This document shows, one piece after another, positions 615 to 34,000 of a stretch of 37,198 nt of DNA; position 1 is the first letter of the stretch; every line of letters starts with the position of its first letter. This DNA comes from Caldifarciminota bacterium (GTDB lineage Bacteria; Hydrothermota; Tepidihabitantia; Tepidihabitantales; DTDR01), in NCBI GenBank assembly GCA_025060715.1, contig JANXBG010000015.1:1-37198 (forward strand), read 5' to 3'. The translations under genes and the position numbers were made by a program. The notes beneath the pieces were generated by a model. It was not told the DNA's origin, searched no databases, and was given only the letters and a program-made list of their open reading frames with translations.

Positions 615-3446
615 CTAAATCTGAAGGCTTAATCCCTTCTCCCAATTTTCTCTTAAAAGTTTTATTTCTAAATCAATAAGGTTTTTGTTATAATAGTTAA
701 TTATTAAAGAGTCTTTTTCTAATACCTCACCAAGGATTGCTAATTTTATATCGCCCATTAGCCTTAAAAACTCTTCTATTTTTTCTTCTTCCACTTCACA
801 AAGAAAACGGGTATTAGATTCAGAGAATAAGATTATATCAGGTCTATTAATCTCTTCACCCAATATAACTTTTTCTAAATCAATTTTACAACCTAAATTT
901 TGGGTAAAAGTCATTTCGGCTAAAGCAACTCCTAAACCACCTTCTGATAAATCGTGGATGGAAATTATTAAATCTTTATTAATTGCTTCAAATATCTTTT
1001 CCATAATCTTTCTTCCTTTTTCAGGAAATACTCTTGGAACTTTACCAAAATTTTTATTAAATAAAGAAAAATAAACTGAACCACCAAGTTCATTATAAGT
1101 TTCACCAATTAAAATAATCTTTGATTTTGGCTTTTTAAAATAAGAAGTAATTGTCTTATTTATATTTGGGATAATTGAAACTGCTGAAATTAATAAAGTT
1201 GGTGGGATAGCAATTGTTTTTTTTCCAATTCTAAATTCATTATATAAAGAATCTTTTCCTGAAATAAAAGGAGTTTGATAACCTTTTGCTGCAAAATAAG
1301 CTCCTAAACAAGTTTCTACAATATCTCCCATCACTTCTTCTCTCTCAGGATTAGAAAAACAAAAATTATCTAAAATTCCTGTCTGATTTATATCGCCACC
1401 ACAACAAACAACATTTCTTAATGCCTCATCAACCACTGAGGCCGCCATCCAATAAGGAGAAATCTCTCCATAAGAAGGATTTATCCCACAAGCAACTGCT
1501 ATCCCTTTATCTTTCTCTCTTAAAGGCTTTAAAATTACTCCATCAGAAGGGCTTCCTTCCAAAAGAGGTTTCAAAACTGTCCTTCCCTGAACTTCTAAAT
1601 CATATTGACGAATAATCCATTCTTTAGAGGCAACATTTTCCTGTTTAATTATCTTTAATAAAAGTTCGTTATAATCTTTTATCTCCCAATCAATCTTTTT
1701 TATTTTCTCTTTTCTTTTACAAATTGCCTTTCTTTTTACTTGAGGTATTCCGTTATGTAAAAAATTTAGGTCTATTTCTCCCACAATCTTATCTTGATAT
1801 TTTAAAATCAATTTCTTATCATCTCTCAATCTACCAATTATTGTTGCTTTCACATTATGTAAATCACAAATCTCTTTGAATCGCTTAAAATTCTCTTCGG
1901 GAAGGAATATTATCATTCTTTCTTGGGATTCAGAAATCCAAATTTCGGTATAACTTAATCCGGCATATTTTAAAGGAACTTTATCTAAATAAACTTCGGC
2001 ACCGGTCTTCTCACTAAGTTCACCAATTGCCGAAGAAAGTCCGCCACCACCACAATCAGTAATCGCATTAAAAAGATTTTCATCTCTGGCCTGTAAAATA
2101 GCATCAACCATTTTTTTCTCTTCTATTGGATTACCAATTTGGACTGCGGTAGAAGCAACTCTTTTCGATTCTCTTTTTAATTCACCCGAAGCAAAAGTAA
2201 CTCCGTGAATACCATCTCTTCCGGTATCGCCACCAACTAAAACAATTATATCATTAGGAATTATCTTCTTTTCAATCTTATCTTTGGGAATAATTCCCAA
2301 GGTGCCACAGAAAACCAAGGGATTGCATAAGAAATTTTTATGAAAATATACCGCACCACAAGCAGTGGGAATTCCCATTCTATTACCATAATCACGCACT
2401 CCACTTACTACTCCTTTTAAAATTCTTCTTGGTGGCAATACTCCCTTAGGAATTTCTTTTTTCTTAATATCTAATTTTCCAAAACAGAAAATATCAGTAT
2501 TTAAAATTGGTTTTGAACCTAAACCGGTTCCTAAACAATCTCTAATCACCCCTCCAATACCAGTTGCCGCACCACCATATGGTTCAATTGCCGAAGGATG
2601 ATTATGGGTCTCTACTTTAAAACTTATTCCATAATTCTCATCAAATTCAATTACACCAGAATTATCTCTAAATGCTAAAAGCACATAAGGTTTATTTAAC
2701 TCTTCGGTAACTTTAAAGATTGTTTCTTTTAATAAATTTCTTATCCATTTTCCTTTATAATAAACATCCCCTTTCATTGTCTTATGCTTACAATGCTCTG
2801 ACCATGTTTGAGCAAAGGTTTCTATTTCAATATCTGTCGGCTCTCTTTTTAATTTTTGATAATATCTCTGAATTGCTAATAATTCTGGTAAGGAAAGGCT
2901 AAATTTTTTAGCAAGTTTTATCAATTCTTTTCTTTTCTTATTTAAAATTTTAACTCTTCTTAATTTAAACTTATATTCCTTGGGTTTTAAAAAAAGATAA
3001 TTTGGTTTGCCCTTAATAATGTGTTGAATTAAAGGATTATAAAGATGTTCTTTGGCAATCTCTACTAATTTTTCTTTTTTCTCCTTGGTCTTAAAAAGAT
3101 ATTTCTTTAAAATCTTTATTTGTAAAGAAGAATAACCAAATTCATTTAAGCTCTTTATCACTTGCTCTTCTTCTGGGTCAGTAACACCTAAATTATAACC
3201 AATCTCAATAACTTTATATCCTTTAAAATTAAAATTACCAATTTTAAATTCTTCCACTACTGGATCGAGAAATAAATTTCTTACAATCTCCTCTATTTCA
3301 TTCTTTTTAAGGGATGTTTTAAATAAAAATACTTTAACAATTATTAAATCCTCAATATTGATATTAAAATTTTCAATTAACTCTTTTTTTAATATTTCAC
3401 TTTCGTTATCAAAAATTTTCTTTTTAATTTCAACACGGTAAATCAT
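615..3446 (-). CDS. purL: Phosphoribosylformylglycinamidine synthase, PurL with fused PurS-like N-terminus
   Basis: Synthetase subunit of FGAM synthase (purine pathway step 4), converting FGAR to FGAM with ATP and ammonia supplied by PurQ. At 943 residues it is longer than small PurL (about 740) and lacks the C-terminal glutaminase of the single-chain enzyme (about 1300). The first 160 or so residues look like a PurS-type region (GVTDPEEEQVIKSL). The catalytic core follows with TWSEHCKHKT, KVETHNHPSAIEPYGGAATG and later GVAVACG-like and ISGKDSL motifs. The separate glutaminase PurQ is encoded divergently at 4147. The start lies 21 nt from the 3' end of tRNA-Leu with no Shine-Dalgarno site, so co-transcription with the tRNA is likely. 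Confidence 0.96.
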   Translation of the reverse strand: MIYRVEIKKKIFDNESEILKKELIENFNINIEDLIIVKVFLFKTSLKKNEIEEIVRNLFLDPVVEEFKIGNFNFKGYKVIEIGYNLGVTDPEEEQVIKSLNEFGYSSLQIKILKKYLFKTKEKKEKLVEIAKEHLYNPLIQHIIKGKPNYLFLKPKEYKFKLRRVKILNKKRKELIKLAKKFSLSLPELLAIQRYYQKLKREPTDIEIETFAQTWSEHCKHKTMKGDVYYKGKWIRNLLKETIFKVTEELNKPYVLLAFRDNSGVIEFDENYGISFKVETHNHPSAIEPYGGAATGIGGVIRDCLGTGLGSKPILNTDIFCFGKLDIKKKEIPKGVLPPRRILKGVVSGVRDYGNRMGIPTACGAVYFHKNFLCNPLVFCGTLGIIPKDKIEKKIIPNDIIVLVGGDTGRDGIHGVTFASGELKRESKRVASTAVQIGNPIEEKKMVDAILQARDENLFNAITDCGGGGLSSAIGELSEKTGAEVYLDKVPLKYAGLSYTEIWISESQERMIIFLPEENFKRFKEICDLHNVKATIIGRLRDDKKLILKYQDKIVGEIDLNFLHNGIPQVKRKAICKRKEKIKKIDWEIKDYNELLLKIIKQENVASKEWIIRQYDLEVQGRTVLKPLLEGSPSDGVILKPLREKDKGIAVACGINPSYGEISPYWMAASVVDEALRNVVCCGGDINQTGILDNFCFSNPEREEVMGDIVETCLGAYFAAKGYQTPFISGKDSLYNEFRIGKKTIAIPPTLLISAVSIIPNINKTITSYFKKPKSKIILIGETYNELGGSVYFSLFNKNFGKVPRVFPEKGRKIMEKIFEAINKDLIISIHDLSEGGLGVALAEMTFTQNLGCKIDLEKVILGEEINRPDIILFSESNTRFLCEVEEEKIEEFLRLMGDIKLAILGEVLEKDSLIINYYNKNLIDLEIKLLRENWEKGLSLQI

Positions 3447-3467
3447 AATTAATAATTAAAATAAAAA

Positions 3468-3552
3468 TGCCGGGGGCGGGATTTGAACCCGCACGCTCTT
3501 TCTGAGCCCACGCCCCTCAAACGTGTGTGTCTGCCAATTCCACCACCCCGGC
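3468..3552 (-). tRNA. tRNA-Leu (anticodon GAG)
   Basis: An 85-nt cloverleaf on the minus strand. The acceptor arm is GCCGGGG/CCCCGGC with discriminator A. The anticodon arm CACGT-TTGAGGG-GCGTG gives anticodon GAG. A long variable arm (class II) and a T-arm with GTTCAAATC are present. The CCA end is not encoded; the gene is followed directly by TTTTTATTTT. Its promoter lies just upstream and purL follows 21 nt downstream. Confidence 0.95.
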
Positions 3553-3915: not shown

Positions 3916-4146
3916 GTACACAAAATAAGAAAATAAAAAAGAAAGTACTCCATTAGGAAAATTGAATTTTTAGATTTAATTTTTTGATGAAAGCTTTGTT
4001 AATTTTTTAGTATTACTTTTTAAGGTAATAATAGGCACCTATTAAGAAATAGAAAGTTGTAAAGGATAATTCGTAAGAAAATCCTTAGTATTTAGCCTAA
4101 CGCAATTTTATTGATTTTTAATATTTTTTTATTTTAATTATATCTT

Positions 4147-4896
4147 GTGATAAGTAAGGTAAAGGTTTTGATGATTTTTAGTAGCGGCACTAATTGTGAT
4201 GAAGAGACAGAATATGCTTTCAAAAAAGCTGGTGGAGAAGTTTTTAAATTGCATATCAATTACCTTAAAAGAAATAAAAAGATTTTAAAAGAGTTTCATA
4301 TTCTTTCTTTACCTGGTGGATTTACTTATGGTGATTATATTTCGGCAGGTAAAATTTTAGCAAATGAACTTCGTTATTATTTTCAGGAAGAGATAAAAGA
4401 TTTTATTAAAGAAGGTAAGTTGATCATTGGTATTTGTAATGGTTTTCAAATCTTATGTAAGGCTGGACTTTTGCCGGGTTTTGATGATTATTTTTCGTTT
4501 CCGCAAGTTACTTTAACTTTTAATGATTCTCAAAAATTTGAATGTCGTTGGGTTTCTTTAAAGGTTAATCACAATTCTCCAACACCTTTCATTAAAGATT
4601 TGGATGAAATAATTGAATTGCCTATTGCCCATGCCGAAGGCAAATTTTTTGTTGATAAAGAAGAAGTTTTAAAAAAATTAAAAGAAAATAATCAAATTGT
4701 TTTAAAATATATTAATAATCCGAATGGCTCAATAGAAGATATTGCAGGAATTTGTGATGCTACCGGTAGAATTTTTGGACTTATGCCCCATCCGGAAAGA
4801 TTTATTTTCCCCTTACATCATCCATTAAGAAAAAATAAGGTTGATGGTTTGAAATTTTTTATTAATGCTTGTGAATATGCCAAAAGAGAATTATAA
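4147..4896 (+). CDS. purQ: Phosphoribosylformylglycinamidine synthase glutaminase subunit PurQ
   Basis: Class I glutamine amidotransferase that hydrolyses glutamine and passes ammonia to PurL. The 249-residue length is typical. The N-terminal FSSGTNCDEE corresponds to the PurQ FPGSNCD motif. The nucleophile elbow is GICNGFQ (Cys near residue 98) and the catalytic His/Glu are in PHPERF (near 215). The start is GTG at 4147, since starting at the ATG at 4171 would remove the first beta strand. There is no Shine-Dalgarno site. Weak boxes TTGATT (4111) and TAATTA (4135-4140) end 6 nt before the GTG, like other short-leader promoters here. It is the first gene of a four-gene plus-strand cluster; the next ORF overlaps its 3' end. 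Confidence 0.95.
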   Translation: MISKVKVLMIFSSGTNCDEETEYAFKKAGGEVFKLHINYLKRNKKILKEFHILSLPGGFTYGDYISAGKILANELRYYFQEEIKDFIKEGKLIIGICNGFQILCKAGLLPGFDDYFSFPQVTLTFNDSQKFECRWVSLKVNHNSPTPFIKDLDEIIELPIAHAEGKFFVDKEEVLKKLKENNQIVLKYINNPNGSIEDIAGICDATGRIFGLMPHPERFIFPLHHPLRKNKVDGLKFFINACEYAKREL

Positions 4897-9858: not shown

Positions 9859-11139
9859 TTAATATTTAAAAATTATATCTTCTCTTTTTTCACCAATAGA
9901 AACTGCCCAAATTTCGCAACCGGTTAATCTTTCAATCGTATTTAAAAATTCCAAAACCTCTTCATCAAAATCCTTATAACTTTTAACTTTATTAAAATCT
10001 TGATTAAAAGGCTTTAACTCCAAATATTTTGGCTCTAAATGATAGGCTAATTCTGGAATGAATTCATCAATCTCATTTCCTTCATAAATATAACCATTAG
10101 CAATCTTCAACTCATTTAAACCTGAGAGAATATCAATTTTAGTAATTATTAATTTTTCAAATCCATTGATCCTTTTGGCATATCTAATAATACCGCAATC
10201 AAACCAACCGCATCTTCTTTTTCTACCCGTAGTGGCCCCAAACTCTTTTCCTTTTTCTTGAAGATATTTACCAATTTCATTAGTCAATTCTGTTGGAAAA
10301 GGACCTTCACCAACTCTTGTGGTATAGGCTTTACAAACTCCAATCACTTCTTCAATAAAATTAAAAGGGATGCCTACCTGACCAGATATACTACCAGCAA
10401 TTGTTGAAGAACTGGTTACATAAGGATAGGTTCCAAAATTTATATCCAACAAAGTTCCTTGAGCACCTTCAAAAATAATCTTTTTCCCCTTTTTTAATTC
10501 CTCATATACTTCTTTACTTACATCAGTAATTAAGGAAAGGAAAAATTCTCGATTTTCTTTTACAAAGTTCAGATAACTCTTTTCCGAAATTGGCGGAACT
10601 TCGTATATTTCCATTAAAAGATAATTTTTTCTTAAAAACTCCTGCTTTAATTTTTCAGAAAATAAACTAAAGTCTTTTAAATCACCAATCCTAATTCCTA
10701 TTCTTTGATATTTATCTTCATAACAAGGACCAATCCCTTTTTGGGTTGTGCCAATTTTTACTCCTTTTTTTAATTCTTCTCTTTTTTTATCTATCTCTTT
10801 ATGAAAAGGAAATATTAAATGGCAGCGGTAATCAACAAAAATTCGGTTTTTTATATCAATCCCTAAATTTTTTAATTCCTCTATCTCATTTTTTAATACT
10901 TCTAAATCAATTATACAACCACTAGCAATATAACCTTTTAAATGGGAATGGGTAAGACCGCTTGGTAATTGATGAAAAATTACTCTTTTATCATCAAAGA
11001 CAACTGTATGCCCAGCATTTGGTCCACCTTGAAAACGAACACAGCCATCGGCATACTTACAAAAAAAATCAACAATTTTTCCTTTTCCTTCATCACCCCA
11101 TTGGGCACCAATAATTGCCAGACTATTACTTTTTATCAT
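9859..11139 (-). CDS. purA: Adenylosuccinate synthetase
   Basis: Catalyses the GTP-dependent joining of IMP and aspartate to adenylosuccinate, the first committed AMP step. At 426 residues it is full length. The N-terminus has the signature IGAQWGDEGKGK (catalytic Asp and His region), then GGPNAGHTV; the middle has EGAQGTLLD with YPYVTSSST; the late part has TTGRKRRCGWFD. The start is supported by the family N-terminus and by a promoter whose -10 box ends 10 nt upstream. It leads a unit with two envelope glycosylation genes, which have no obvious functional link to it. Confidence 0.97.
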   Translation of the reverse strand: MIKSNSLAIIGAQWGDEGKGKIVDFFCKYADGCVRFQGGPNAGHTVVFDDKRVIFHQLPSGLTHSHLKGYIASGCIIDLEVLKNEIEELKNLGIDIKNRIFVDYRCHLIFPFHKEIDKKREELKKGVKIGTTQKGIGPCYEDKYQRIGIRIGDLKDFSLFSEKLKQEFLRKNYLLMEIYEVPPISEKSYLNFVKENREFFLSLITDVSKEVYEELKKGKKIIFEGAQGTLLDINFGTYPYVTSSSTIAGSISGQVGIPFNFIEEVIGVCKAYTTRVGEGPFPTELTNEIGKYLQEKGKEFGATTGRKRRCGWFDCGIIRYAKRINGFEKLIITKIDILSGLNELKIANGYIYEGNEIDEFIPELAYHLEPKYLELKPFNQDFNKVKSYKDFDEEVLEFLNTIERLTGCEIWAVSIGEKREDIIFKY

Positions 11140-11149
11140 AAAACAAAAT

Positions 11150-11177
11150 ATTTTATCAAAAAATTTTTCTATGTCAA
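11150..11177 (-). promoter_or_regulatory. purA promoter (TTGACA-16-TAAAAT)
   Basis: Minus-strand TTGACA (11172-11177) and TAAAAT (11150-11155) lie 16 bp apart. The -10 box ends 10 nt before the purA ATG, so the 5' leader should be about 4 nt. No Shine-Dalgarno site is present. Confidence 0.75.
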
Positions 11178-11284: not shown

Positions 11285-12448
11285 TTAGCCACAGAAATAC
11301 ACCCAAAATGAATCTCCATTGGGAAAAATACCAGTTATCACCTTCTCAAGGGTGAGTTTCTTGCTTAAAGTTGTGTCTCCAGAAATAGTATCAATGGCCC
11401 AGACCTTAGTGATACAGGTAGTTTCAGAACTTGGCACCCAAAGGAAAGAACCTTCTCCATTACTATTGATTGCCACCGGTTGGCGGAGAAGAGTGTCAGC
11501 ATATCTCGAATTAATACTTCTCACTAAAATAACAATATGCTGTTGATTGGGTTGAAAACCTGAGAGGTGAAATTGGACACAATAACCTGTTGGTTCATTG
11601 TTCTTTTTTACAATTAAATAATAGTGCGGAATATCTTTTTCCCATTCTACATAAGCATCACTCGGTGGAGTAGTAACAATATTTATTTCACCATTAAGAT
11701 CTAATTCTCCTCGTTTAGGAGAAATCTTTATAACTTTTAAGTGAAAATAGTGAATTACGGTTTCACCCTCAATATTCATCTTTGCCTCTTCAATCTGTCC
11801 TCTTCGGATGCGAAAACTATAAATCTGTGTTTGGTCTCCTACCTTAACTTTTAAGAATGCCCGATATACTGGAGGTGTTTTCTTCTTATCTATACTCCTC
11901 TTCCCTTCTAAAAAGGTGATTTGGGGGAAACCTCTTTTATACTTCTCTTCTTCTACTATTCCCTCTATAAGATATCTTCCAGTATCTGATTTTAGTAGCT
12001 CTTCTATTAGATCATGTAAAGCAAACCCTTCCGAAGCTATCACAACAAATGCCTTTGCTAACTCAATTATATTTTTCTCATCTACTTCAAAACCATTGTC
12101 AAGTAAAAGACGATTAAACTCAACCGGTAATTTATAAAATTTGCCTTTAAACTCTGCTTTCATACAAGACTGAGGTGGTAATGATATTCCATAAAATAAC
12201 TTATAAAATTTAACCTCAGGAAAAATATTTGCTAACAATGGATGGGTCTCAAATTTATACCAACTCCGCTGCTTTTCCTTTGGTTTGTCTTTAGCCCATT
12301 GAAGATAAAGATTATCAACCATCTTATTTTCCTCTCCAGAAAGCCGGATAAGCTTACAAGCAGAATAAAACTCTATCGGCTTCCTGCCACCAGCAAATAA
12401 AATGGTGAATGACACAATTAAAATCAAAAATAAAACTCTCACTTTCAT
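11285..12448 (-). CDS. Secreted protein, truncated paralogue of the MXAN_6640-type protease gene next to it
   Basis: 387 residues with an N-terminal signal peptide (MKVRVLFLILIVSF...LFAGG), so probably exported. It aligns with the neighbouring split gene at 12516-14338: FNRLLLDNGFEV against FNRLILDNGLEV, FPQITFLEGKR in both, and LTLEKVITGIFPNGDSFWVYF against LTLEKVLTGRFSGDDSFWVYY. It stops just where the paralogue enters its metalloprotease domain; the stop falls where the paralogue has Gln in WVYYTDQFF. It therefore keeps only the N-terminal non-catalytic part. A strong AAGGAGG and its own promoter precede it. The function of the remaining part is unknown. Confidence 0.8.
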   Translation of the reverse strand: MKVRVLFLILIVSFTILFAGGRKPIEFYSACKLIRLSGEENKMVDNLYLQWAKDKPKEKQRSWYKFETHPLLANIFPEVKFYKLFYGISLPPQSCMKAEFKGKFYKLPVEFNRLLLDNGFEVDEKNIIELAKAFVVIASEGFALHDLIEELLKSDTGRYLIEGIVEEEKYKRGFPQITFLEGKRSIDKKKTPPVYRAFLKVKVGDQTQIYSFRIRRGQIEEAKMNIEGETVIHYFHLKVIKISPKRGELDLNGEINIVTTPPSDAYVEWEKDIPHYYLIVKKNNEPTGYCVQFHLSGFQPNQQHIVILVRSINSRYADTLLRQPVAINSNGEGSFLWVPSSETTCITKVWAIDTISGDTTLSKKLTLEKVITGIFPNGDSFWVYFCG

Positions 12449-12453
12449 TTTTT

Positions 12454-12503
12454 CCTCCTTTTTGTTAAATTACTAAAATTATAATCATGAAAAAAAAAGT
12501 CAA
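12454..12503 (-). promoter_or_regulatory. Promoter and strong RBS of the secreted paralogue (11285-12448)
   Basis: Minus-strand TTGACT (12498-12503), a 14-bp spacer and TATAAT (12478-12483), then AAGGAGG (12454-12460) five bases before ATG. The leader is about 25 nt, unlike the leaderless layout elsewhere. The 14-bp spacer is short for a sigma-70 promoter, but the paralogue has the same spacing. Confidence 0.5.
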
Positions 12504-13300: not shown

Positions 13301-14338
13301 TTATATAAATTGGACCAAGGATACTTCTGGACCATAAATATATGGCCTTATGGGTTTTATTTTTATGTAGACGGTTTCCATCGGATTAAAACTATATAGT
13401 CTGAATCTGAGCCAAGAGTTGGTCGGAGTTTTATTTCTATTGGTAATAAGATAATGAAAACTATCATTCTCAACAGTGGCATTTCCAATATTGGTAGCAA
13501 TCTCAATTCTCGGATTGCGAGAATCTAACTCTCCCTTCAACTTCTCTTCAATAAGCCAGACCTCATAACTTCGGTATGGTTTTTCATTTACGAAGACCGT
13601 TATGCGGGTAAACTGTCCTACTTTTATCAATCTCCTTCTTTTTTCACCAGGAGGGTTTCTATACAAGGTTTGAGAAAATCGCCATTTTTGGATTTCGCCG
13701 TCACCAATTCGTATTTTCAATTCAGCATCCATTCTCATACCTTCTTCGCTATCCCACATATTTATCCTCTTCCCTTCTAAGAAGGTGATTTGGGGGAAAG
13801 AAAGGAGTTCATCTTCAATAGTTAGTGATGGCCGCCGCTTCCGCCACTCCCCCCATTCCCCACCTTTTAAAAAAACCGGCTCGCTTCCAACCGCTAATAT
13901 TACAAACATCTTCGCTAATTCTAATATATTCTTATCCGTCACTTCAAGCCCGTTATCTAAAATCAATCTATTAAAATCTTGAGGCATCTTATACTTATTT
14001 GTACCACTTATCGCGATAAAATAAGGATACATCGCCACTAAGTTTATCCCTTTATAAAAATTGACATAAGGAAGAAATCGTTGGAGTAAATCTACCCCTT
14101 CAACTTTACTAAATGGAAATAACTCAATTACTTCTTCTGTATCTCCTTTAACAAATATATTATCTTTACACCAATCTGGAACCATCTCCGGAAACTTTTG
14201 AAGAATTTCTCTCATTATCTCTCTTGCTGATAACATCCGCATCCTTGGAACCACTACCTCCTTTCCAATCACCTTCCTTCCACCAGCAAATAAAAAGCTA
14301 AAAACTAATAAACCTAAAAATAAAACTCTCACTTTCAT
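13301..14338 (-). CDS. 5' fragment of the frameshifted secreted protease gene
   Basis: 345 residues beginning with a signal peptide (MKVRVLFLGLLVFSFLFAGG). The body aligns with the intact N-terminal region of the neighbouring paralogue (FNRLILDNGLEV, FPQITFLEGKR). After RPYIYGPEV the frame breaks to VSLVQFI and a stop, while a shifted frame continues into the protease fragment at 12516-13223. The original product would have been a signal peptide, an N-terminal domain and a C-terminal HExxH protease of about 600 residues. AAGGAAG precedes the ATG, and the promoter is related to that of the paralogue. Confidence 0.8.
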   Translation of the reverse strand: MKVRVLFLGLLVFSFLFAGGRKVIGKEVVVPRMRMLSAREIMREILQKFPEMVPDWCKDNIFVKGDTEEVIELFPFSKVEGVDLLQRFLPYVNFYKGINLVAMYPYFIAISGTNKYKMPQDFNRLILDNGLEVTDKNILELAKMFVILAVGSEPVFLKGGEWGEWRKRRPSLTIEDELLSFPQITFLEGKRINMWDSEEGMRMDAELKIRIGDGEIQKWRFSQTLYRNPPGEKRRRLIKVGQFTRITVFVNEKPYRSYEVWLIEEKLKGELDSRNPRIEIATNIGNATVENDSFHYLITNRNKTPTNSWLRFRLYSFNPMETVYIKIKPIRPYIYGPEVSLVQFI

Positions 14339-14343
14339 TTTTT

Positions 14344-14381
14344 CTTCCTTTTAAAATTATAAAAAATTTTAATAAAGTCAA
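14344..14381 (-). promoter_or_regulatory. Promoter and RBS of the frameshifted secreted gene
   Basis: Minus-strand TTGACT (14376-14381), a 14-bp spacer and TATAAT (14356-14361), then AAGGAAG (14344-14350) five bases before ATG. Same geometry as the paralogue's promoter. Confidence 0.5.
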
Positions 14382-14550: not shown

Positions 14551-14579
14551 TTGACAATAAAATTTTTTAACTTTATAAT
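14551..14579 (+). promoter_or_regulatory. Perfect sigma-70-type promoter with leaderless geometry
   Basis: TTGACA (14551-14556), 17-bp spacer, TATAAT (14574-14579). The -10 box ends 5 nt before ATG 14585, so transcription should begin at or within a base of the start codon. No ribosome binding site is present. Confidence 0.85.
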
Positions 14580-14584
14580 TTTAT

Positions 14585-14956
14585 ATGGAAATATTTTTAG
14601 CAATTTCTTCGGTAGTTATTGCCTTTTTAAGTGTTTTTTTAGCAATTTATTTGTCAAAAAGAACTGATAAACTAATTAAAACAGAAGACCAAAGAGCAAA
14701 AGAGATGATTGAAAATGGAAAGAAAAGGTCAGAGCAGTTAATTTTAGAAATGAATAAAAGAATGGAAGAATATAATTTAAGAACACAAGAAATAATTAAA
14801 GAAATGAATAAAAGAATGGAAGAATATAATTTAAGAACACAAGAAATAATTGTAGAGATGTATAAACAAACAAGAGAAATAATCGCTGAAATGAACAGAC
14901 AGACCCAAGAAACATTAAGTCACATCGCTGACTTAATTGTTGCCCAACGAAGATAA
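14585..14956 (+). CDS. Membrane-anchored coiled-coil protein with a 54-bp tandem duplication
   Basis: A 123-residue protein with no recognised family. One N-terminal transmembrane helix (about residues 3-24) is followed by a long, charged alpha-helical coiled coil. Residues in the middle are an 18-residue unit, EMNKRMEEYNLRTQEIIK, repeated twice in a row (DNA 14747-14800 and 14801-14854, nearly identical), with weaker units after it (EMYKQTREII, EMNRQTQETL). Eighteen residues is close to five helical turns. It stands alone, with a consensus promoter giving a leaderless mRNA. It could be a membrane-tethered oligomer or spacer; no function can be assigned. Confidence 0.8.
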   Translation: MEIFLAISSVVIAFLSVFLAIYLSKRTDKLIKTEDQRAKEMIENGKKRSEQLILEMNKRMEEYNLRTQEIIKEMNKRMEEYNLRTQEIIVEMYKQTREIIAEMNRQTQETLSHIADLIVAQRR

Positions 14957-16543: not shown

Positions 16544-17520
16544 TCTTCTCTCCTTTTATTAAGAATTGCCTTTGCTAAACTATACATATAAAAAGTTCCA
16601 ACTGGGTCTTTTATTTTATTAATCTCTTCTTCTAATATTTTATGAAACTCTTCATAATTTTTCTTTTCTTCATCCAGTAAGAGAATAGAAGTAAGAGCAC
16701 TTATCATCTTTGCTCCTTGATCAGAGACCTCTGGTGTTGGTCCCATACAACCGGTGCAGGGCCAATTGGCATTAATACAAAGATTTTTACAGCCACTTCT
16801 GGTTGCTGGTCCTAAACAGATAATTCCTTGTTCTAAAAAACAGGTATTTGGATCAGGTTGAATTTCTATCATTCTTTTTATTTTTGGCATTTTTTTAGGA
16901 AAGGTTTTGTTTCTTTCGCAGGTGTCACATAAAGATTTTATTGGTGCTAAATAGGTCTTTTTGGGTATATTCTCATTTGCAAAAATTCTTTCCATAGTAT
17001 TAATAATTAAAGCTGTAGGCGGTGGGCAACCTGGTAAATAGTAATCCACTTCACAAATCTCATCCAAAGGAAACACTTGGGGATAAAATTCAGGCAGCTC
17101 CATTTTTTCCCCATTATAAAAAATCTCTTTTTGGGGCAAAATTTTCTTAGGATTCTCAGTTGATTCAGTTTCAACAAATCCTCTTTTTAAAATCTCTTCT
17201 TTTTGATAAAGATTTGCTAACCCTGGAACACAGCCTTCTATCGCACAGGAACCAAAAGCCACCAATATTTTCGATTTTTTTCTTAAAAGCCTCGCTAAAT
17301 ATTCCTGTTCAGAATTTCTTATTGAACCATTAAAGAAACAAAAATCAAAATAATTATCGGGTAAATTTTCCACATCTTTATATTTGGTATCAATTGCTGC
17401 TGGCCAGAAAAGAATATCAGCATTTTTAATCACATCTAAAATTTTCTCATTAATATCTAATACTGCAATCTCACAACCCCCACAGGAAGCAGCCCAATAA
17501 AAAGCAAATTTTTTCTTCAT
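16540..17520 (-). CDS. mvhG: Group 3 [NiFe] hydrogenase small subunit (MvhG-like)
   Basis: A 326-residue electron-transfer subunit. [10 protein letters not shown] at the N-terminus, [11 protein letters not shown] and LPGCPPP supply the proximal [4Fe-4S] ligands. [25 protein letters not shown] and [11 protein letters not shown] supply further cluster ligands, as in Mvh/Frh-type small subunits. There is no twin-arginine signal, so the enzyme is cytoplasmic. It is the first gene of a two-gene operon with the large subunit, under a promoter whose -10 box ends 9 nt before the ATG. A group 3 assignment follows from motif style; the precise subgroup is inferred. Confidence 0.92.
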
Positions 17521-17529
17521 ACAAAAGAA

Positions 17530-17557
17530 ATTATATTAAATTTAAAAATAAAATCAA
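17530..17557 (-). promoter_or_regulatory. Hydrogenase operon promoter (TTGATT-16-TATAAT)
   Basis: Minus-strand TTGATT (17552-17557) and TATAAT (17530-17535), 16-bp spacer. The -10 box ends 9 nt before the mvhG ATG, giving a leader of about 3 nt with no Shine-Dalgarno site. Confidence 0.7.
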
Positions 17558-17704: not shown

Positions 17705-17732
17705 TTGACAAAAATTTATTATCTCTTATAAT
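17705..17732 (+). promoter_or_regulatory. Methylmalonyl-CoA operon promoter (TTGACA-16-TATAAT)
   Basis: TTGACA (17705-17710), 16-bp spacer, TATAAT (17727-17732). The -10 box ends 7 nt before ATG 17740, so the transcript should start about one base from the start codon. Confidence 0.85.
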
Positions 17733-17739
17733 TGAAATA

Positions 17740-19398
17740 ATGGAAAAAAAGAGATTAGAAGAATTACTTAAAAAGTGGCAGAAGATTTATGAAGATTCTT
17801 TAAAAAAATTGCCGGAAAGAGAGAAAGATTTTAGTTTAACTTCGAAGATTCCCATAAAACCAGTTTACACCCCTCTTGATTTTGATAGTGAGAGATATGA
17901 AGAAAAATTGTCGCTGCCTGGGATCTTTCCTTTTACTCGTGGCATTCATCCAACAATGTATCGTTCAAGATTATGGACGATGAGACAATATGCTGGTTTT
18001 GGTACTGCTGAAGAAACAAATAAAAGATATCATTATCTTCTATCCCAAGGGCAAACCGGACTTTCGGTAGCTTTTGACTTACCCACACAGTTAGGTTACG
18101 ATTCTGACCATCCAAGGGCAAAAGGTGAAATTGGCAAAGTTGGAGTTGCTATTTCCTCTTTAGCAGATATGGAAATTCTTTTTAAAGGGATTGATTTAAA
18201 TAAAATTTCTACCTCAATGACAATTAATGCTACTTGTTGTATTATATTAGCAATGTATTATCTTTTAGCAGAAAAACAAGGAGCTGATTTAAAGAATTTG
18301 AGTGGCACAGTTCAAAACGATATATTAAAAGAATATGTCGCCCGGGGGTGTTATATTTTTCCACCTAGGCCTTCTATGAGATTAGTTAGTGATGTTATTA
18401 TTTGGTGTAATGAAAATTTACCAAGATTCAATCCAATAAGCGTTTCCGGTTATCATATAAGAGAAGCTGGTGCAAATGCAGTACAAGAAATTGCCTTTAC
18501 TTTGGCAGACGGTTTGGAATATATTAAAGAAGTAGTTAAAAGAGGGATTGATATAAATAAATTTGCACCAAGAATTTCCTTTTTCTTCGCTGCTCATTCT
18601 AACATTTTAGAAGAGGTAGCAAAATTTCGGGCAGCAAGAAGATTATGGGCAAGACTTTTAAGAGAAAGATATCAAGCAAATGATGAGGCATGCCGTTTAA
18701 GATTTCATACCCAAACCGGCGGAGTTACTTTGACCGCTGCCCAACCTGAAAATAATATAATTCGTGTTGCCTATCAAGCATTAGCAGCTGTCTTGGGCGG
18801 TACCCAAAGTCTTCATACCAATTCCTTTGATGAAGCCCTTTGTTTACCAACTGAAAAGGCAGTAACAATCGCATTAAGAACTCAACAAATTTTAGCATAT
18901 GAAAGCGGTGTCGCGGATGTCTGTGATCCTTTGGCTGGTTCTTATTTTGTAGAAAGTTTAACCGATGAGATTGAAAAAAGAGCCGAAGAGATTATTAATG
19001 AGATTGAAAATTTAGGTGGTGCTACCAAAGCAGTAGAAATTGGTTATATTCAAGAAAAGATAAATGAAAGCGCTTATGAATATCAAAAAGAATTAGAAAG
19101 CGGCAAAAGAAAAGTTGTGGGCGTAAATTGTTTTCAAGAAGAAAAAAAAGAAAAATACGAAATTTTAAGAATTGATGAAAGTTTAGAGAAAAAAAGAATT
19201 GAAGAATTAAGAGATTATAAAAAGAACCGTAATCAAATAAAATTAAAAGAGGCTATGAAAAGATTAAAAGAAGTTGCCCAAAGTGAAGAGAATATTATGC
19301 CAGCTGTGATTGAAGCGGTAAGAAATGGTGCTACCGTAGGTGAAATTTCTGATGTTTTTCGGGAAGTTTTTGGTGAATACCAATCAAAAGTTTTTTAA
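17740..19398 (+). CDS. mcmA1: Methylmalonyl-CoA mutase, large (catalytic) subunit
   Basis: Adenosylcobalamin-dependent interconversion of (R)-methylmalonyl-CoA and succinyl-CoA. The 552 residues form the substrate-binding TIM-barrel chain only: FPFTRGIHPTMYRSRLWTMRQYAGFGTAEE, then SVAFDLPTQLGYDSDHP, RFHTQTGGVTLTAAQPENN and LGGTQSLHTNSFDEA are all present. The B12-binding domain is not on this chain and not in the window, so a separate small subunit must be encoded elsewhere, as in archaea and many anaerobes. The start fits the family and a promoter placed for leaderless transcription. It heads an operon with a DUF2130 protein and the epimerase. Confidence 0.96.
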   Translation: MEKKRLEELLKKWQKIYEDSLKKLPEREKDFSLTSKIPIKPVYTPLDFDSERYEEKLSLPGIFPFTRGIHPTMYRSRLWTMRQYAGFGTAEETNKRYHYLLSQGQTGLSVAFDLPTQLGYDSDHPRAKGEIGKVGVAISSLADMEILFKGIDLNKISTSMTINATCCIILAMYYLLAEKQGADLKNLSGTVQNDILKEYVARGCYIFPPRPSMRLVSDVIIWCNENLPRFNPISVSGYHIREAGANAVQEIAFTLADGLEYIKEVVKRGIDINKFAPRISFFFAAHSNILEEVAKFRAARRLWARLLRERYQANDEACRLRFHTQTGGVTLTAAQPENNIIRVAYQALAAVLGGTQSLHTNSFDEALCLPTEKAVTIALRTQQILAYESGVADVCDPLAGSYFVESLTDEIEKRAEEIINEIENLGGATKAVEIGYIQEKINESAYEYQKELESGKRKVVGVNCFQEEKKEKYEILRIDESLEKKRIEELRDYKKNRNQIKLKEAMKRLKEVAQSEENIMPAVIEAVRNGATVGEISDVFREVFGEYQSKVF

Positions 19399-21588: not shown

Positions 21589-22986
21589 TTGAATTCCGAA
21601 AATAGAAAACAGAAATTTTATATTTCCCTTTTTGCGGGTTTAGCTTCTTTTTTAACCCCTTTTATGAGTTCTTCAATAAATATTGCTTTACCTGCTATTA
21701 GTAAAGAATTTAAGATGTCATCAATTTTAATAAGTTGGGTGCCGACGATTTTTCTTTTATCTTCAGCAATTTTCCTTATTCCTTTTGGAAAGATTGCCGA
21801 TAATTACGGTAGAAAGAGAATATTTCTGTTAGGAATTATTATCTATACCCTGGCTTCTTTTTTATCCTGTTCTTCTTTTTCTTCCTCTTTCTTTCTATTT
21901 ATTCGTTTCTTGCATGGTCTTGGTGGTGCGATGATTTTTAGCACCGCCATTGCTCTTTTATCTTCATTTTTTTCTGTTGGCGAAAGAGGAAAGGCATTAG
22001 GAATAAATGTTTCGGCAACTTATTTTGGTCTTTCTTCCGGTCCCTTTTTGGGCGGAATTCTTACCCATCATTTTAGTTGGCGAAGTATTTTTATTTTTAA
22101 TGGGATTATTGGTTTAATAATTATTATTTTAACAATCTTAAAATTAAAAATTAAAGAAAAAGAAATAAAATCCATTAAATTTGATTATTGGGGATTTATT
22201 TTATACTCCTTCACAATTATTCCGTTGATGGTTGGATTTTCTTTCTTACCCAGATTAATAAGTTTTTTATTAATTCTCTTTGCTCTTTTAATCTTATATT
22301 TTTTTATCTTTTATGAGTCAAAGACTAAAGAACCCATATTAGATATAAAGCTTTTTAGAAACAATCCAAATTTTACTTTCTCTAATTTAGCAGCGATGAT
22401 TAATTATAGTGCTACTTTTGGAATCAATTTTCTTTTAAGTTTATATCTTCAATACTTGAGAAATTTTGATCCCCAAAGAACAGGTTTTATTTTGCTCTCC
22501 CAACCATTAACAATGGCAATCTTTTCACCTTTTGCCGGAATGCTTTCCGATAGGAAAGAACCAAGAACAATTGCTTCCTTAGGAATGGCCTTAATTGCTT
22601 TTTCACTTTTTTTATTAAGTTTTATTCATAAAGATTTTAAGATAACATTATTAATAATTTTATTATTTATTTTAGGATTTGGTTTTGCTCTTTTTTCTTC
22701 ACCAAATACCAATGCGATAATGGGGTCGGTAGAAAGAGAATTTTATGGAGTGGCTTCGGCAACCTTAGCAACAATGAGAACATTGGGGCAGATGTTCAGT
22801 ATGGGAATTATTATTGTAATTTTTGCTATCATTATAGGAAAAACAAATCTTAATAAAATTAATTCTTTACTTCTTTTAAAAAGTATAAGGATAATCTTTT
22901 TAATATTTGCTTTTTTATGTTTCTTAGGAATTTTTGCTTCTTTAAAAAGAGGAAAAATGTTGAAAAATAATGAAAAAATTTTATAA
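21589..22986 (+). CDS. MFS transporter, DHA2-type drug exporter family
   Basis: A 465-residue polytopic membrane protein. The motif-A loop GKIADNYGRKR lies between TM2 and TM3, and GVGGAMIFSTAIALL-like sequence and GLSSGPFLGGIL (motif C, antiporter) follow. The second half has GMLSDRKEPR. About 14 hydrophobic helices fit the DHA2 family. The first in-frame start is TTG 21589; the next candidate Met (MSSSINIALP) would cut TM1, so the TTG is preferred, though no clear ribosome site precedes it. The substrate is unknown. Confidence 0.88.
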   Translation: MNSENRKQKFYISLFAGLASFLTPFMSSSINIALPAISKEFKMSSILISWVPTIFLLSSAIFLIPFGKIADNYGRKRIFLLGIIIYTLASFLSCSSFSSSFFLFIRFLHGLGGAMIFSTAIALLSSFFSVGERGKALGINVSATYFGLSSGPFLGGILTHHFSWRSIFIFNGIIGLIIIILTILKLKIKEKEIKSIKFDYWGFILYSFTIIPLMVGFSFLPRLISFLLILFALLILYFFIFYESKTKEPILDIKLFRNNPNFTFSNLAAMINYSATFGINFLLSLYLQYLRNFDPQRTGFILLSQPLTMAIFSPFAGMLSDRKEPRTIASLGMALIAFSLFLLSFIHKDFKITLLIILLFILGFGFALFSSPNTNAIMGSVEREFYGVASATLATMRTLGQMFSMGIIIVIFAIIIGKTNLNKINSLLLLKSIRIIFLIFAFLCFLGIFASLKRGKMLKNNEKIL

Positions 22987-22987
22987 T
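22960..22987 (+). promoter_or_regulatory. Internal promoter ahead of the DUF2007 gene
   Basis: TTGAAA (22960-22965), 16-bp spacer, TATAAT (22982-22987), inside the MFS 3' end. The -10 box ends 5 nt before ATG 22993, the same leaderless spacing as at 14585. Confidence 0.55.
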
Positions 22988-22992
22988 TTTTG

Positions 22993-23223
22993 ATGGCTTT
23001 AAAGGTGTTATATAAACCAAAAGATGAGATAGAAGCGATTACTATTCAGAGTTTTTTAGAAAGTATTGGTATAAAGGCGGTTATCCGTTCTTACGATTTA
23101 CCTTATTTTGATGGAATTGCTAAAATGATGCGTTCAGAGTGGGGCGAGATTTTAGTTTTGGAAGAAGATTTTGGAAAGGCAAAAGAATTTTTAGAAGATT
23201 TTTTCTCTCAAAAGAATGATTAA
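22993..23223 (+). CDS. DUF2007 domain protein
   Basis: A 76-residue protein with the DUF2007 pattern: LYKPKDEIEAITIQSFLESIGIKAVI, then WGEILVLEEDFGKAKEFLEDF. The family is often called a putative signal-transducing protein, but no activity is established. The ORF track adds an upstream TTG codon; ATG 22993 is the better start because a promoter-like TATAAT ends 5 nt before it. It overlaps the DUF2905 gene by 8 bases, indicating coupling. Confidence 0.85.
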   Translation: MALKVLYKPKDEIEAITIQSFLESIGIKAVIRSYDLPYFDGIAKMMRSEWGEILVLEEDFGKAKEFLEDFFSQKND

Positions 23224-23444: not shown

Positions 23445-26057
23445 ATGAAAAGAAAATGGGTATATTTTCTTTCGGATAATTTAAATATTAAAAACAGTGA
23501 TAAATTAAAAGAAATTCTTGGTGGCAAAGGAGCTGGGCTTTATTTTTTAGCCAAAATGGGTTTGCCGGTGCCACCAGCATTTATTATCTCTACTTCTGCC
23601 TGTCGGTATTATCTAAAAAATAAAAAACTTCCTAAAGGCCTTTTGAAAGAAGTTTATTTAGGAATTGAATATTTAGAAAAAAGAACTAAAAAAAGGTTTG
23701 GTAATAAAGACAATCCTTTGCTTGTTTCGGTAAGAAGCGGTGCTAAGTTTTCTATGCCCGGGATGATGGATACTATTTTAAATTTAGGAATCAATGATGA
23801 AGTGGTTGAAGGACTTATTAAAAAAACTAATAATCCAGATTTTGCTTATGATATTTATAAAAGATTTATTGAGATCTTTTCTGAGATAATTTTTGGTATA
23901 AAAAGGGAAGAATTTTTAAAAATTTCTGATAATAAAGAGAAAACAATTGAAAAATATAAAGAAATTTTTTACGAAAAAACAAAAAGAGAGTTTCCCCAAA
24001 ATCCTTATGAATGTTTAAAGATGGCGATAGAAGGTGTTTTTAACTCTTGGAATAATCCCCGAGCAAAAGAATACCGAAAAATTTATCAAATACCTGAAGA
24101 TTTAGGAACTGCGGTAAATATTCAAGCAATGGTTTTTGGTAACTGGGATGAAAAAAGTGGCACTGGCGTACTTTTTACCCGAAATGTAAAAAATGGAGAA
24201 AATAAGATTTATGGTGAGTTTCTTTTTAAAGCCCAAGGAGAAGATTTAGTTGCTGGTCATGTGACACCTTTACCCTTAGAGACATTAAAAGAAAAGATGC
24301 CAAAGGTATACATCAAATTAGAAAGATATGTGAAAAAATTAGAGAAAAAATTAAGGGATGTTCAAGATGTGGAATTTACAATTGAAAATGGAAAATTATA
24401 TTTTCTTCAAACCCGGGCAGCAAAGAGAACTCCCTTGGCAGCAATAAAGATTGCGTGCGATATGGTAAAGGAGAGATTAATTACTAAAGAAGAAGCAATT
24501 ATGCGAATAAGTAGCGAGGATATTGATTATTTTCTTCATCCCACTTTTGATCCTAATCATCCTTTAGAAATAATTGCCAAAGGCAAACCGGCTTCTCCTG
24601 GTTGTGCTGTTGGTGAAATTGTTTTAACAGCCGAAAAAGCAATTGAAGTAGCCAATCAAAATAGAAAGGTTATTTTGGTAAGAAATTTTACCAAAGCCGA
24701 TGATGTTGCGGGAATGGCGAAATCCGAAGGGTTTGTTACTACCACTGGAGGAGAAACTTCTCATGCAGCAGTAGTAGCCCGAGGTATGGGAAAACCTTGT
24801 ATAGTTGGTTGTGCCGATATCATTATTGATTTTGAAAAAAAGATATTAAAAATAAAAAATTTAATTTTAAAAGAAGGCGATAAGATTTCAATTAATGGAA
24901 CGACAGGAGAGATTATAAAAGGAGAAGTTCCACTAATAAAATCTGAATTTCCGCAAGAATTAAATCTTCTTTTATCTTGGGCTGATGAGATTGCCAAAAT
25001 AAAAGTACGGGCTAATGCTGATACACCAATAGATGCTGAAAATGCTAAAAAGATGGGAGCAAAAGGAATTGGTTTGGCAAGAACTGAACATATGTTTTTT
25101 GCTCCAGAAAGGATTAAATATGTTCAATTAATGATTTTAGCAAAAGATGAAAAAGAGAGAAAAGAAATACTTTCTAAACTTTTGCCTTTCCAAAAAAATG
25201 ATTTTAAAGAGCTATTCAAAGTGATGAATGGATTACCAGTAACCATTCGAACCTTGGACCCACCTCTTCACGAATTTTTGCCGCCTAAAGAAAAAGTTGA
25301 AGCAATAAATCAGTTAGCAAGTGAATTAAATGTTAATAAAGAAATATTAATAAGAAAAATTGAAGAATTAGAAGAACATAATCCAATGATGGGATTAAGG
25401 GGATGTCGTTTAGGAATTATTTACCCTGAAATTACCGAGATGCAAGTAAGAGCAATTTTGGAGGCCGCCTGTGAAGCAAAAAAAGAGGGAATAGAAGTTA
25501 ATTTAGAAATTATGATACCTTTGGTGTCGCTGGTAGAAGAGTTTTTATCACAAAAGAAAATAATTGAAAAAGTAAGTAAGGAAGTCTTTGAAAAAGAAGG
25601 TGTGAAATTGAATTACAAAATTGGCACAATGATAGAAACTCCTCGGGCTTGCTTGATTGCTAAAGAATTAGCAAAATATGTTGACTTTTTCTCCTACGGA
25701 ACCAATGATTTAACCCAATTTGTTTTTGGTTTTTCCCGAGACGATTCAGAAAAATTTTTAATTCCTTATCAACAAAAAAGAATAATTAATTTTGAACCTT
25801 TTAAAACTATTGATGAAGAAGGGGTTGGTTCTTTAATTATTACTTCAGTTTTGAATGCCAAAAAGATAAATAAAAATATTAAAATTGGTATCTGTGGTGA
25901 ACATGGTGGAGATGAAAAAAGTATTTTCTTTGCTAAAAAAATAAATATAGATTATGTAAGTTGCAGTCCCTATCGGGTGCCAAAGGCAAGATTAGCTGCT
26001 GCCCAAGCGGAGATTTATTTAAGAAATAAAAAAATTAGTTTAATTACAACAAAATGA
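23445..26057 (+). CDS. ppdK: Pyruvate, phosphate dikinase
   Basis: Reversibly interconverts pyruvate + ATP + Pi and phosphoenolpyruvate + AMP + PPi. The 870 residues cover the whole enzyme. The N-terminal ATP-grasp domain has GGKGAGLYFLAKMGLPVPPAF and SVRSGAKFSMPGMMDT. The swivelling phosphohistidine domain has TTGGETSHAAVVARGMGKPC. The C-terminal PEP-binding barrel has ARTEHMFF, GLRGCRLGI, FFSYGTNDLTQF and the catalytic Cys in GICGEHGGD. AAGGAGA lies 7 nt before the ATG. The last four bases overlap apgM, so two consecutive steps of lower glycolysis/gluconeogenesis are translationally coupled. Confidence 0.97.
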   Translation: MKRKWVYFLSDNLNIKNSDKLKEILGGKGAGLYFLAKMGLPVPPAFIISTSACRYYLKNKKLPKGLLKEVYLGIEYLEKRTKKRFGNKDNPLLVSVRSGAKFSMPGMMDTILNLGINDEVVEGLIKKTNNPDFAYDIYKRFIEIFSEIIFGIKREEFLKISDNKEKTIEKYKEIFYEKTKREFPQNPYECLKMAIEGVFNSWNNPRAKEYRKIYQIPEDLGTAVNIQAMVFGNWDEKSGTGVLFTRNVKNGENKIYGEFLFKAQGEDLVAGHVTPLPLETLKEKMPKVYIKLERYVKKLEKKLRDVQDVEFTIENGKLYFLQTRAAKRTPLAAIKIACDMVKERLITKEEAIMRISSEDIDYFLHPTFDPNHPLEIIAKGKPASPGCAVGEIVLTAEKAIEVANQNRKVILVRNFTKADDVAGMAKSEGFVTTTGGETSHAAVVARGMGKPCIVGCADIIIDFEKKILKIKNLILKEGDKISINGTTGEIIKGEVPLIKSEFPQELNLLLSWADEIAKIKVRANADTPIDAENAKKMGAKGIGLARTEHMFFAPERIKYVQLMILAKDEKERKEILSKLLPFQKNDFKELFKVMNGLPVTIRTLDPPLHEFLPPKEKVEAINQLASELNVNKEILIRKIEELEEHNPMMGLRGCRLGIIYPEITEMQVRAILEAACEAKKEGIEVNLEIMIPLVSLVEEFLSQKKIIEKVSKEVFEKEGVKLNYKIGTMIETPRACLIAKELAKYVDFFSYGTNDLTQFVFGFSRDDSEKFLIPYQQKRIINFEPFKTIDEEGVGSLIITSVLNAKKINKNIKIGICGEHGGDEKSIFFAKKINIDYVSCSPYRVPKARLAAAQAEIYLRNKKISLITTK

Positions 26058-27241
26058 AAGAGTTGATTGTAAAAAATGAAAATAAAATTTTGTTAATTGT
26101 TTTAGATGGATTAGGTGGTTTACCGATTAATGGAAAAACTGAATTAGAAACAGCAAAAACCCCTAATCTTGATGAATTAACAAGAAAAAGTGAATTAGGT
26201 CTAACAATTTCTGTTGATTATGGTATAACCCCTGGTTCTGGTCCTGGACATTTAGCTATATTTGGTTATGACCCATTAGAAATTAAAATCGGTCGGGGAG
26301 TATTAGAAGCTTTAGGATTAGGACTTAGGTTAGAAGAAAATACGTTAGCAATAAGAGGAAATTTTGCTACTTTTAAAGATGGAAAAATAATTTCCCGTAG
26401 AGCCGGAAGGATAAGCAGTGAAGAAAACAGAAGATTATGTGAAAAACTAAGAAGAGAGATTAAGTATATTAAAGATTATGAGATTGAATTTCATTCTGGA
26501 ATTGAACATCGTTTTGTAGTATTAATAAAAGGAAAAGATCTAAGCGAAGAAATAAAAGAAACAGACCCCCAAAAAGATGGTCTACCACCATATTTGCCCG
26601 AACCTTTGTCAGAAGAAGGTAAAAAGACAAGTGAAATTTTAAAAATTTTAATAGAAAGGGGTAGAGAAGTTTTAAAAGAAGAAAAAGAAGCTAACTATTT
26701 TCTTTTGCGGGGATACAGTAAGGTGCCGAAAGTTGAAAATTTTTGTGAAAAATATCAATTAAAAAGTTTAGCAATCGCTACCTACCCAATGTATAAAGGT
26801 ATTGCTTCTTTAATTGGTATGGATGTGGTTAAATCTTCTCTAAACAGTTGGGAAGAAGAGATAGAGGAGTTAAAAAGAAATTATCAGAGTTATGATTTTT
26901 TTTATCTCCATTTTAAAGAGATAGATACTGCGGGTGAAGATGGTGATTTTGAAAAAAAGGTTTTGTTAATTGAAAAGTTTGATTCCCTTTTGCCAGAAAT
27001 TTTAAAATTAAATTTTTCGGTTATTGCAATAACTTCTGACCATTCCACACCAGCATTATTGAAAAGCCATTCTTGGCATCCTTCACCATTCCTATTGTAT
27101 TCTCCCTTTTCCCGAAATAATGAAAAAGTAAAATTTTGTGAAAAAAATTGCCAAAAGGGGAGTTTGGGGGTTTTTAAAGCCCAAAAAATCCTTCCCCTTC
27201 TTTTAGCTTATTCTTTACGATTAAAGAAATTCGGTGCCTAA
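26054..27241 (+). CDS. apgM: 2,3-bisphosphoglycerate-independent phosphoglycerate mutase, archaeal type
   Basis: Interconverts 3- and 2-phosphoglycerate. The 395 residues belong to the alkaline-phosphatase-superfamily ApgM type rather than to GpmI. IVLDGLGGLP provides the first metal site, LETAKTPNLDELT and GITPGSGPGHLAIFGYDP the catalytic Ser region, and TSDHSTPALLKSHSWHPSPFLLYSP the distal metal ligands. It overlaps ppdK by four bases (ATGA), and its stop overlaps the convergent PIN-like gene by four bases. ApgM is standard in archaea and occurs in several thermophilic and candidate bacterial phyla. Confidence 0.95.
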   Translation: MKELIVKNENKILLIVLDGLGGLPINGKTELETAKTPNLDELTRKSELGLTISVDYGITPGSGPGHLAIFGYDPLEIKIGRGVLEALGLGLRLEENTLAIRGNFATFKDGKIISRRAGRISSEENRRLCEKLRREIKYIKDYEIEFHSGIEHRFVVLIKGKDLSEEIKETDPQKDGLPPYLPEPLSEEGKKTSEILKILIERGREVLKEEKEANYFLLRGYSKVPKVENFCEKYQLKSLAIATYPMYKGIASLIGMDVVKSSLNSWEEEIEELKRNYQSYDFFYLHFKEIDTAGEDGDFEKKVLLIEKFDSLLPEILKLNFSVIAITSDHSTPALLKSHSWHPSPFLLYSPFSRNNEKVKFCEKNCQKGSLGVFKAQKILPLLLAYSLRLKKFGA

Positions 27242-31064: not shown

Positions 31065-31433
31065 TTAATTTTCTTTTTTTTCCTCTTTGTTATTAACTTC
31101 GGCTGGTTCTTTTATTTCTTCTTTAGTTACTGTTCTTTCTCTCTTCAGTTTTAGACTTTTTCTTTCTCGTAAGTAATAAAGTTTTGCTCTTCTTACTTTT
31201 GCTCTTTTTTTGATTTCAATTTTGGTAATTAAAGGAGAGTATAAAGGGAAAATTCTTTCTACACCAATACCATAAGAAATTTTTCTTACCGTAAAAGTTT
31301 TGCTTTCATTTTTTCCTCGGATGGCTAAGACAACTCCCTCAAAAACCCCGTGTTTTTCATTATCTCCCTCAAAATATTTAAAATGAACTCTTATTGTATC
31401 ACCAACTCTAAAATCAGGAATCTTTTTTTCCAT
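31065..31433 (-). CDS. rplS: 50S ribosomal protein L19
   Basis: A 122-residue L19 starting at [18 protein letters not shown], which matches the family N-terminus. The core [35 protein letters not shown] and [13 protein letters not shown] is complete. The ORF-track start at 31472 adds [13 protein letters not shown], but those codons are the promoter: TTGACT and TATAAT lie inside them, so ATG 31433 is the true start. A charged 25-residue tail ([19 protein letters not shown]) extends past the usual end. L19 contacts both subunits at the 30S-50S interface. Confidence 0.95.
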
Positions 31434-31440
31434 AGAAAGT

Positions 31441-31468
31441 ATTATAATAAAAGAAAAAATAAAGTCAA
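31441..31468 (-). promoter_or_regulatory. rplS promoter (TTGACT-16-TATAAT)
   Basis: Minus-strand TTGACT (31463-31468) and TATAAT (31441-31446) with a 16-bp spacer. The -10 box ends 7 nt before ATG 31433, so the mRNA should be leaderless or have one extra base. Bases 31473-31775 beyond it contain no gene I can recognise and look like decayed sequence. Confidence 0.8.
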
Positions 31469-33329: not shown

Positions 33330-33348
33330 ATTTTCATAATAAAATAAA

Positions 33349-33958: not shown

Positions 33959-34000
33959 TATCTATAAGGGATGTTAAGGTGAGGATTAAAATTAAAATTT

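Follow-up and report, generated by a model that had tools for sequence, protein, structure and literature searches.

In this bacterium and its relatives, the sigma-70-type promoters of one-third or more of the first genes lie so close to the start codon that transcription very probably begins on that codon or only a few bases ahead of it, which would produce leaderless or nearly leaderless mRNAs. Such first-gene transcripts, predicted to have no leader or one of at most about 5 nt, are strongly supported for this genome, for its genus, and for part of the phylum. The window (the whole stretch of 37,198 nucleotides analyzed here) is contig 6 of a 1.6-Mb genome that is 92% complete and comprises 86 contigs. 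The closest public deposit is the MAG CALHQW01, whose PurA is 88% identical, and the presence of methylmalonyl-CoA mutase, PurL, and a carboxyltransferase argues against membership in the CPR. The original prediction placed a consensus promoter directly before the start codon of seven genes in the window, with no Shine-Dalgarno (SD) site at any of them. Inspection of each site agreed on both points, as all seven have a sigma-70-type −35/−10 pair 5–10 nt upstream of the start codon and none has an SD. These sites are listed below, with the gap counted from the −10 hexamer to the start codon.

14551–14587, forward strand: anchor site; −35 TTGACA (14551–14556), 17-nt spacer, −10 TATAAT (14574–14579), gap 5 (TTTAT), ATG 14585 of a 123-aa membrane/coiled protein
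17705–17742, forward strand: methylmalonyl-CoA mutase; TTGACA-16-TATAAT, gap 7, ATG 17740
31431–31468, reverse strand: ribosomal protein L19; TTGACT-16-TATAAT, gap 7, ATG 31433
22960–22995, forward strand: 76-aa DUF2007 protein; TTGAAA-16-TATAAT, gap 5, ATG 22993
17518–17557, reverse strand: hydrogenase/Oxidored_q6 small subunit; TTGATT-16-TATAAT, gap 9, ATG 17520
11137–11177, reverse strand: PurA; TTGACA-16-TAAAAT, gap 10, ATG 11139
4111–4149, forward strand: glutamine-amidotransferase (PurQ-like) gene, weak site; TTGATT-16-TTTAAT, gap 8, GTG 4147

The positions and gaps first given for these sites were right to within one or two bases, apart from the gap at 4147, which is 8 nt to a GTG rather than 6 nt. 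Six of the seven sites have TATAAT or TAAAAT, and the −35 hexamers match TTGACA at 4–6 positions. All seven, including the weak GTG site, keep the promoter in one or both of two sister species (G001 and G002), which belong to the same genus and have a median protein identity of about 85%. The anchor ortholog in G002 reads TTGACT...TATAAT-6 nt-ATGGAAATATTT. For methylmalonyl-CoA mutase, the boxes and the gap are identical in both sister species, and the L19 promoter is likewise the same in both. The gap of the DUF2007 gene is 5 nt in both, and a close −10 is present in the more distant G005 and G028 as well. The gap of PurA, for which a leader of 2–5 nt is probable, is 11 nt in G001 (L030). At 4147, the GTG and the boxes are conserved in both sister species; a downstream ATG at 4171 is not conserved. 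As a separate observation, the −10 of the DUF2007 promoter (22982–22987) overlaps the TAA stop (22984–22986) of the preceding MFS gene.

For the genome-wide comparison, genes were called on 803 kb of the genome, including the window, with a hexamer coding model that uses no upstream signal; G+C content is about 30% in this sampled part. First (transcript-heading) genes were defined as those that are divergent or lie more than 100 nt away from a co-directional neighbor (n = 186). The distance from the −10 motif to the start codon has a sharp peak, in line with the genome-wide pattern that had been predicted. When the −10 is considered alone, a TATAAT-like box is found at gap 5–9 in 70 of the 186 first genes (38%), most commonly at gaps of 5–6 nt. 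In other 5-nt windows, such a box precedes 16–24 first genes (9–13%), and among operon-internal genes 25 of 374 (7%) have one at the same gap. Pairs of −35 and −10 boxes at gap 4–9 number 74, compared with 6.4 in dinucleotide-preserving shuffles, and a stricter cut leaves 56 compared with 1.3. The remaining distances have at most a few promoters per nucleotide and no comparable peak. The exact pattern TTGACA-N16..18-TATAAT-N4..9-ATG occurs 28 times genome-wide, compared with eight times for N20..25 and zero for the reversed pattern. Among divergent gene pairs, 42 of 51 have at least one close promoter. The share of first genes with a close box is 45% in G001, 32% in G002, and 43% in G028, which belongs to the same class and another order. 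Through the same pipeline, Escherichia coli has close promoters at 0 of 66 genes, and Deinococcus deserti has the expected TANNNT peak (13 of 74, compared with 0–4 per control window). Because 45 of the 186 first genes have no promoter that passes the cut, this picture of first genes is incomplete. Among the divergent pairs, the genes at L012:10834(−)/10886(+) share an intergenic region of 51 bp that is conserved in G001 and contains both close promoters, which overlap; further pairs separated by 51–58 bp in a similar manner are found elsewhere in the genome.

The close boxes are conserved among orthologs. Where a first gene has a close −10, the box is retained in 9 of 9 comparisons with G001 and 10 of 10 with G002, and those that have no close −10 also have none in the sister species in 10 of 11 and 12 of 15 cases, respectively. 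When genes 26–100 nt from their neighbor are added, the box is kept at 5–9 nt in 29 of 31 comparisons, 24 of them with the exact gap. In a direct comparison of G001 and G002 under a strict definition, the close box is lost in four of eight first genes and kept in the other four, so turnover does exist. The −10 block is more conserved than the discriminator, and the same is true for the −35 block in the larger comparisons. Substitutions in codons 2–13 number 45, 20, and 101 by codon position, whereas those in the 12 nt upstream number 23, 25, and 26, indicating that translation starts at the close start codon.

The original prediction also described a genome-wide split, in which first genes are leaderless and internal genes are SD-led. 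Leaderless transcripts at first genes are strongly supported, given that a leader of up to about 5 nt is allowed, whereas the split as a whole was drawn too cleanly: SD sites precede 48 of the 186 first genes (26%), and most overlapping internal genes have none. The 3' end of the 16S rRNA (GGATCACCTCCTTT) is a normal anti-Shine-Dalgarno sequence, and the five genes that had been named as SD-led (19434, 20593, 23445, 16543, and 5169) all have a strong SD. An SD is found in 0 of 74 first genes in which the best promoter is at gap 4–10, and in 52% of those in which it is at least 15 nt upstream. This absence is partly geometric, since an SD would have to sit where the −10 box already lies. Of the co-directional genes, only those that start 6–15 nt after the previous stop frequently have an SD (57–86%). 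For overlapping co-directional genes, the frequency is 32–36%, compared with a background of 23–31%; since this is near background, such genes are probably translationally coupled. Three first genes in the window have distant promoters:

12446–12483, reverse strand: −10 TATAAT (12478–12483), 29-nt leader with AAAAAGGAGG, ATG 12448
14336–14361, reverse strand: −10 TATAAT (14356–14361), 17 nt with AAAAGGA, ATG 14338
33930–34003, forward strand: SecA; TTGACA-17-TATAAT (33930–33958), 42 nt upstream of ATG 34001

All three were overlooked in the original prediction, and the first two carry an SD with the promoter 29 and 17 nt away. These two genes, 11285–12448(−) and 13301–14338(−), have the same beginning (ATGAAAGTGAGAGTTTTATTT) and similar SD-led leaders, and neither has a Pfam match. 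Elsewhere in the window, the convergent genes 27238–27822(−) and 26054–27241(+) end in a 4-bp overlap at the stop codons.

In bacteria, transcription starts about 6–8 nt after the −10 hexamer. Gaps of 5–7 nt would therefore place the first transcribed base on the start codon, and those of 8–11 nt leave space for a short leader of a few nucleotides. In Deinococcus and mycobacteria, leaderless mRNAs are read by recognition of a 5'-terminal start codon. A similar arrangement probably operates here. A housekeeping sigma-70-type promoter adjoins the start codon of one-third or more of the genes that head a transcript, and RNA polymerase would begin with the A of that codon or only a few bases earlier. 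The resulting mRNA would be leaderless or nearly so and leave no room for an SD, such that ribosomes would recognize the 5'-terminal start codon. Other first genes have a promoter 15–50 nt upstream together with an SD, and downstream genes rely on an SD when a short gap follows the previous stop and probably on translational coupling when they overlap. The promoter position, the excess, the conservation of the box, and the start codon are directly supported; from these we infer the 5' ends of the transcripts and the ribosomal mechanism. A leader of 1–5 nt and no leader at all look alike at this level, above all at gaps of 8–11 nt.

This ambiguity bears on a possible but rather unlikely explanation, namely that the mRNAs have very short leaders (about 1–10 nt) and that ordinary AU-rich, SD-independent initiation takes place rather than recognition of a 5'-terminal start codon. 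The gaps of 8–11 nt at 17520 and 11139, the variation of the gap within 5–9 nt among orthologs, and the AT-rich spacers with purines available before the ATG are consistent with such leaders. However, the normal start point at the commonest gaps of 5–6 nt is the ATG itself, and the gap of 9 nt at 17520 becomes 6 nt in both sister species. Alternatively, the TA-rich box may be a translational signal, such as an AT-rich site for ribosome or S1 binding other than an SD, of the sort suggested for Bacteroidetes-like genomes, rather than a −10. AT-rich upstream signals are known from non-SD genomes (PMC5397173), and the present genome is AT-rich (30% G+C). This explanation is nevertheless very improbable, as TTGACA-like hexamers accompany the box at 16–18 nt, the box is nearly absent at internal genes, which need initiation too, and the same promoter module is found 15–50 nt upstream together with an SD.

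That the true starts lie further downstream behind an SD, with the close ATG being incidental, has an even slimmer chance. Starts called from sequence can err, and the coding model did pick the wrong one at 4147, but the codon-position bias in substitutions begins at the close ATG and ortholog N-termini align from the residue that it encodes. As for chance alone, single near-matches to TATAAT are indeed common at 30% G+C, as seen in the 9–13% of first genes per 5-nt window, but the dinucleotide shuffles, the other distances, the internal genes, the reversed pattern, and the ortholog conservation refute this explanation almost completely. Transcription from sigma-70 promoters adjoining the start codon thus is the preferred reading. 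A practical consequence is that gene finders built around an SD will call wrong starts in this genome, as happened at 4147 with the coding model.

Leaderless genes as such are a known kind, because they have been predicted for about one-fifth of bacterial species: for 207 of 953 bacterial genomes in 2011 (PMC3160421), and as a leaderless transcription class in 21.6% of species (Lomsadze et al., 2018, as cited in PMC9581028). The GeneMarkS-2 leaderless class, as described in PMC9581028, resembles the present case in its promoter-proximity criterion and its mixture with SD genes (Lomsadze et al., 2018). Sequence features of the TA-led class are found here: an excess of the box about 10 bp upstream, its concentration at first genes, the absence of SD at these genes in a genome that uses SD elsewhere, conservation of box and spacing among orthologs, and a genuine start codon. 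The TA-led genes of Deinococcus-Thermus (Zheng et al., 2011, PMC3160421; Zhong et al., 2025, PMC12340547) similarly have a −10 just before the start and no SD there, and coexist with SD-led genes in the same genome. However, theirs have TANNNT, often with no −35, occur in GC-rich genomes, and were shown experimentally, whereas those reported here combine a TATAAT close to the consensus with, in most cases, a −35 similar to TTGACA, lie in AT-rich DNA, and are known from sequence alone. The window sites thus fall outside the Deinococcus type (TANNNT, no −35 needed). Mycobacterial genomes, too, contain leaderless genes alongside SD-led ones (Shell et al., 2015, PMC4633059), but these were mapped by RNA-seq and ribosome profiling; the close-box genes found here start with ATG in 82 of 88 cases and with GTG in three. 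The TA-led genes of low-GC Firmicutes such as Lactococcus and Mycoplasma share the TAtAAT-like box in AT-rich DNA (PMC3160421), although Lactococcus has an extended TG box and a weak −35, whereas the −35 is kept here. In a literature search that covered few subscription journals, no report of leaderless genes was found for this lineage, WOR-3, or uncultivated genomes. The lineage appears to be unreported as a user of leaderless genes, and with it an AT-rich uncultured lineage would join the bacteria that use them heavily.

The leaderless signature extends unevenly over the phylum, as judged from pattern counts in 60 genomes drawn from it. TTGACA-N16..18-TATAAT-N4..9-ATG is present in 59 of the 60, with 944 matches compared with 487 for N20..25. 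The far pattern is a conservative control, because its matches include genuine SD-led genes, with AAGGAGG visible in many. Among the genomes outside the genus, near matches outnumber far ones in 45 and are outnumbered in seven; by these counts, families f11, f12, f23, and f24 have no near-over-far excess. Since one phylum includes both families in which the excess is strong and families that lack it, gains and losses may be traced gene by gene. Single genes do change mode. Within the genus, the 17520 gene is preceded by a close promoter (gap 6 in both sister species), as it is in G006 of another family (TATGAT), and its orthologs in G003 and G028 have an SD in place of the close promoter. In one genome of the same order, G005 (L123–L132), closely spaced genes are unusually rare (18 of 152), and the match to methylmalonyl-CoA mutase contains a TGA. 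Recoding of TGA was rejected, as ORF coverage is almost the same when this codon is read as sense; the odd spacing may be real or may come from assembly errors.

Some tRNA-adjacent genes have neither an SD nor a close promoter. The window has two genes that begin 19–21 nt after a tRNA, both overlooked in the original prediction:

3444–3552, reverse strand: tRNA-Leu(gag) (3468–3552), 21-nt spacer with no SD and no close −10, ATG 3446 of PurL
33327–33421, reverse strand: tRNA-Cys(gca) (33349–33421), 19-nt spacer with no SD, ATG 33329 of a carboxyltransferase

The 41 tRNAs examined from this genome include 23 with a coding start no more than 80 nt away (one such start is an artifact inside another tRNA) and 16 with one no more than 25 nt away; an SD is present at 8 of the 23 tRNA-led genes. 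Because the genome is densely packed, chance could account for such adjacency. The missing SD is nevertheless curious, because coupling to an upstream gene is impossible behind a tRNA. The tRNA-Leu(gag)–PurL pair is kept in G001 with a 12-nt spacer and no SD, and a tRNA-Val(tac) pair persists among the sister species with spacers of 20, 16, and 20 nt, also with no SD. These two are among several tRNA–gene pairs that the sister species retain with spacers of altered length and no SD. In G028, 11 of 14 tRNA-led genes reach the same SD threshold. The tRNAs located 7–22 nt upstream of same-strand genes mostly have no encoded CCA, and several directly precede a T-rich run. This arrangement may serve as a lead. 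It is conceivable, if doubtful, that two routes set mRNA 5' ends near start codons in this genus, namely promoters 5–9 nt away and tRNA 3' processing (7–22 nt), with SD sites used mainly by leadered genes and spaced downstream genes. If so, tRNA 3' processing would release an SD-free mRNA, as a bacterial form of tRNA punctuation. As in mitochondria, a tRNA directly upstream could set the mRNA 5' end by 3' processing; unlike in mitochondria, the case here consists of the arrangement, spacers of 7–22 nt would remain, and about one-third of the genes have an SD. Finally, a tRNA-Sec at L039:16767(−) to 16904 is followed after 42 nt by a 627-aa gene that has its own close promoter in the gap and is, by position, probably selB; this arrangement is kept in G002.
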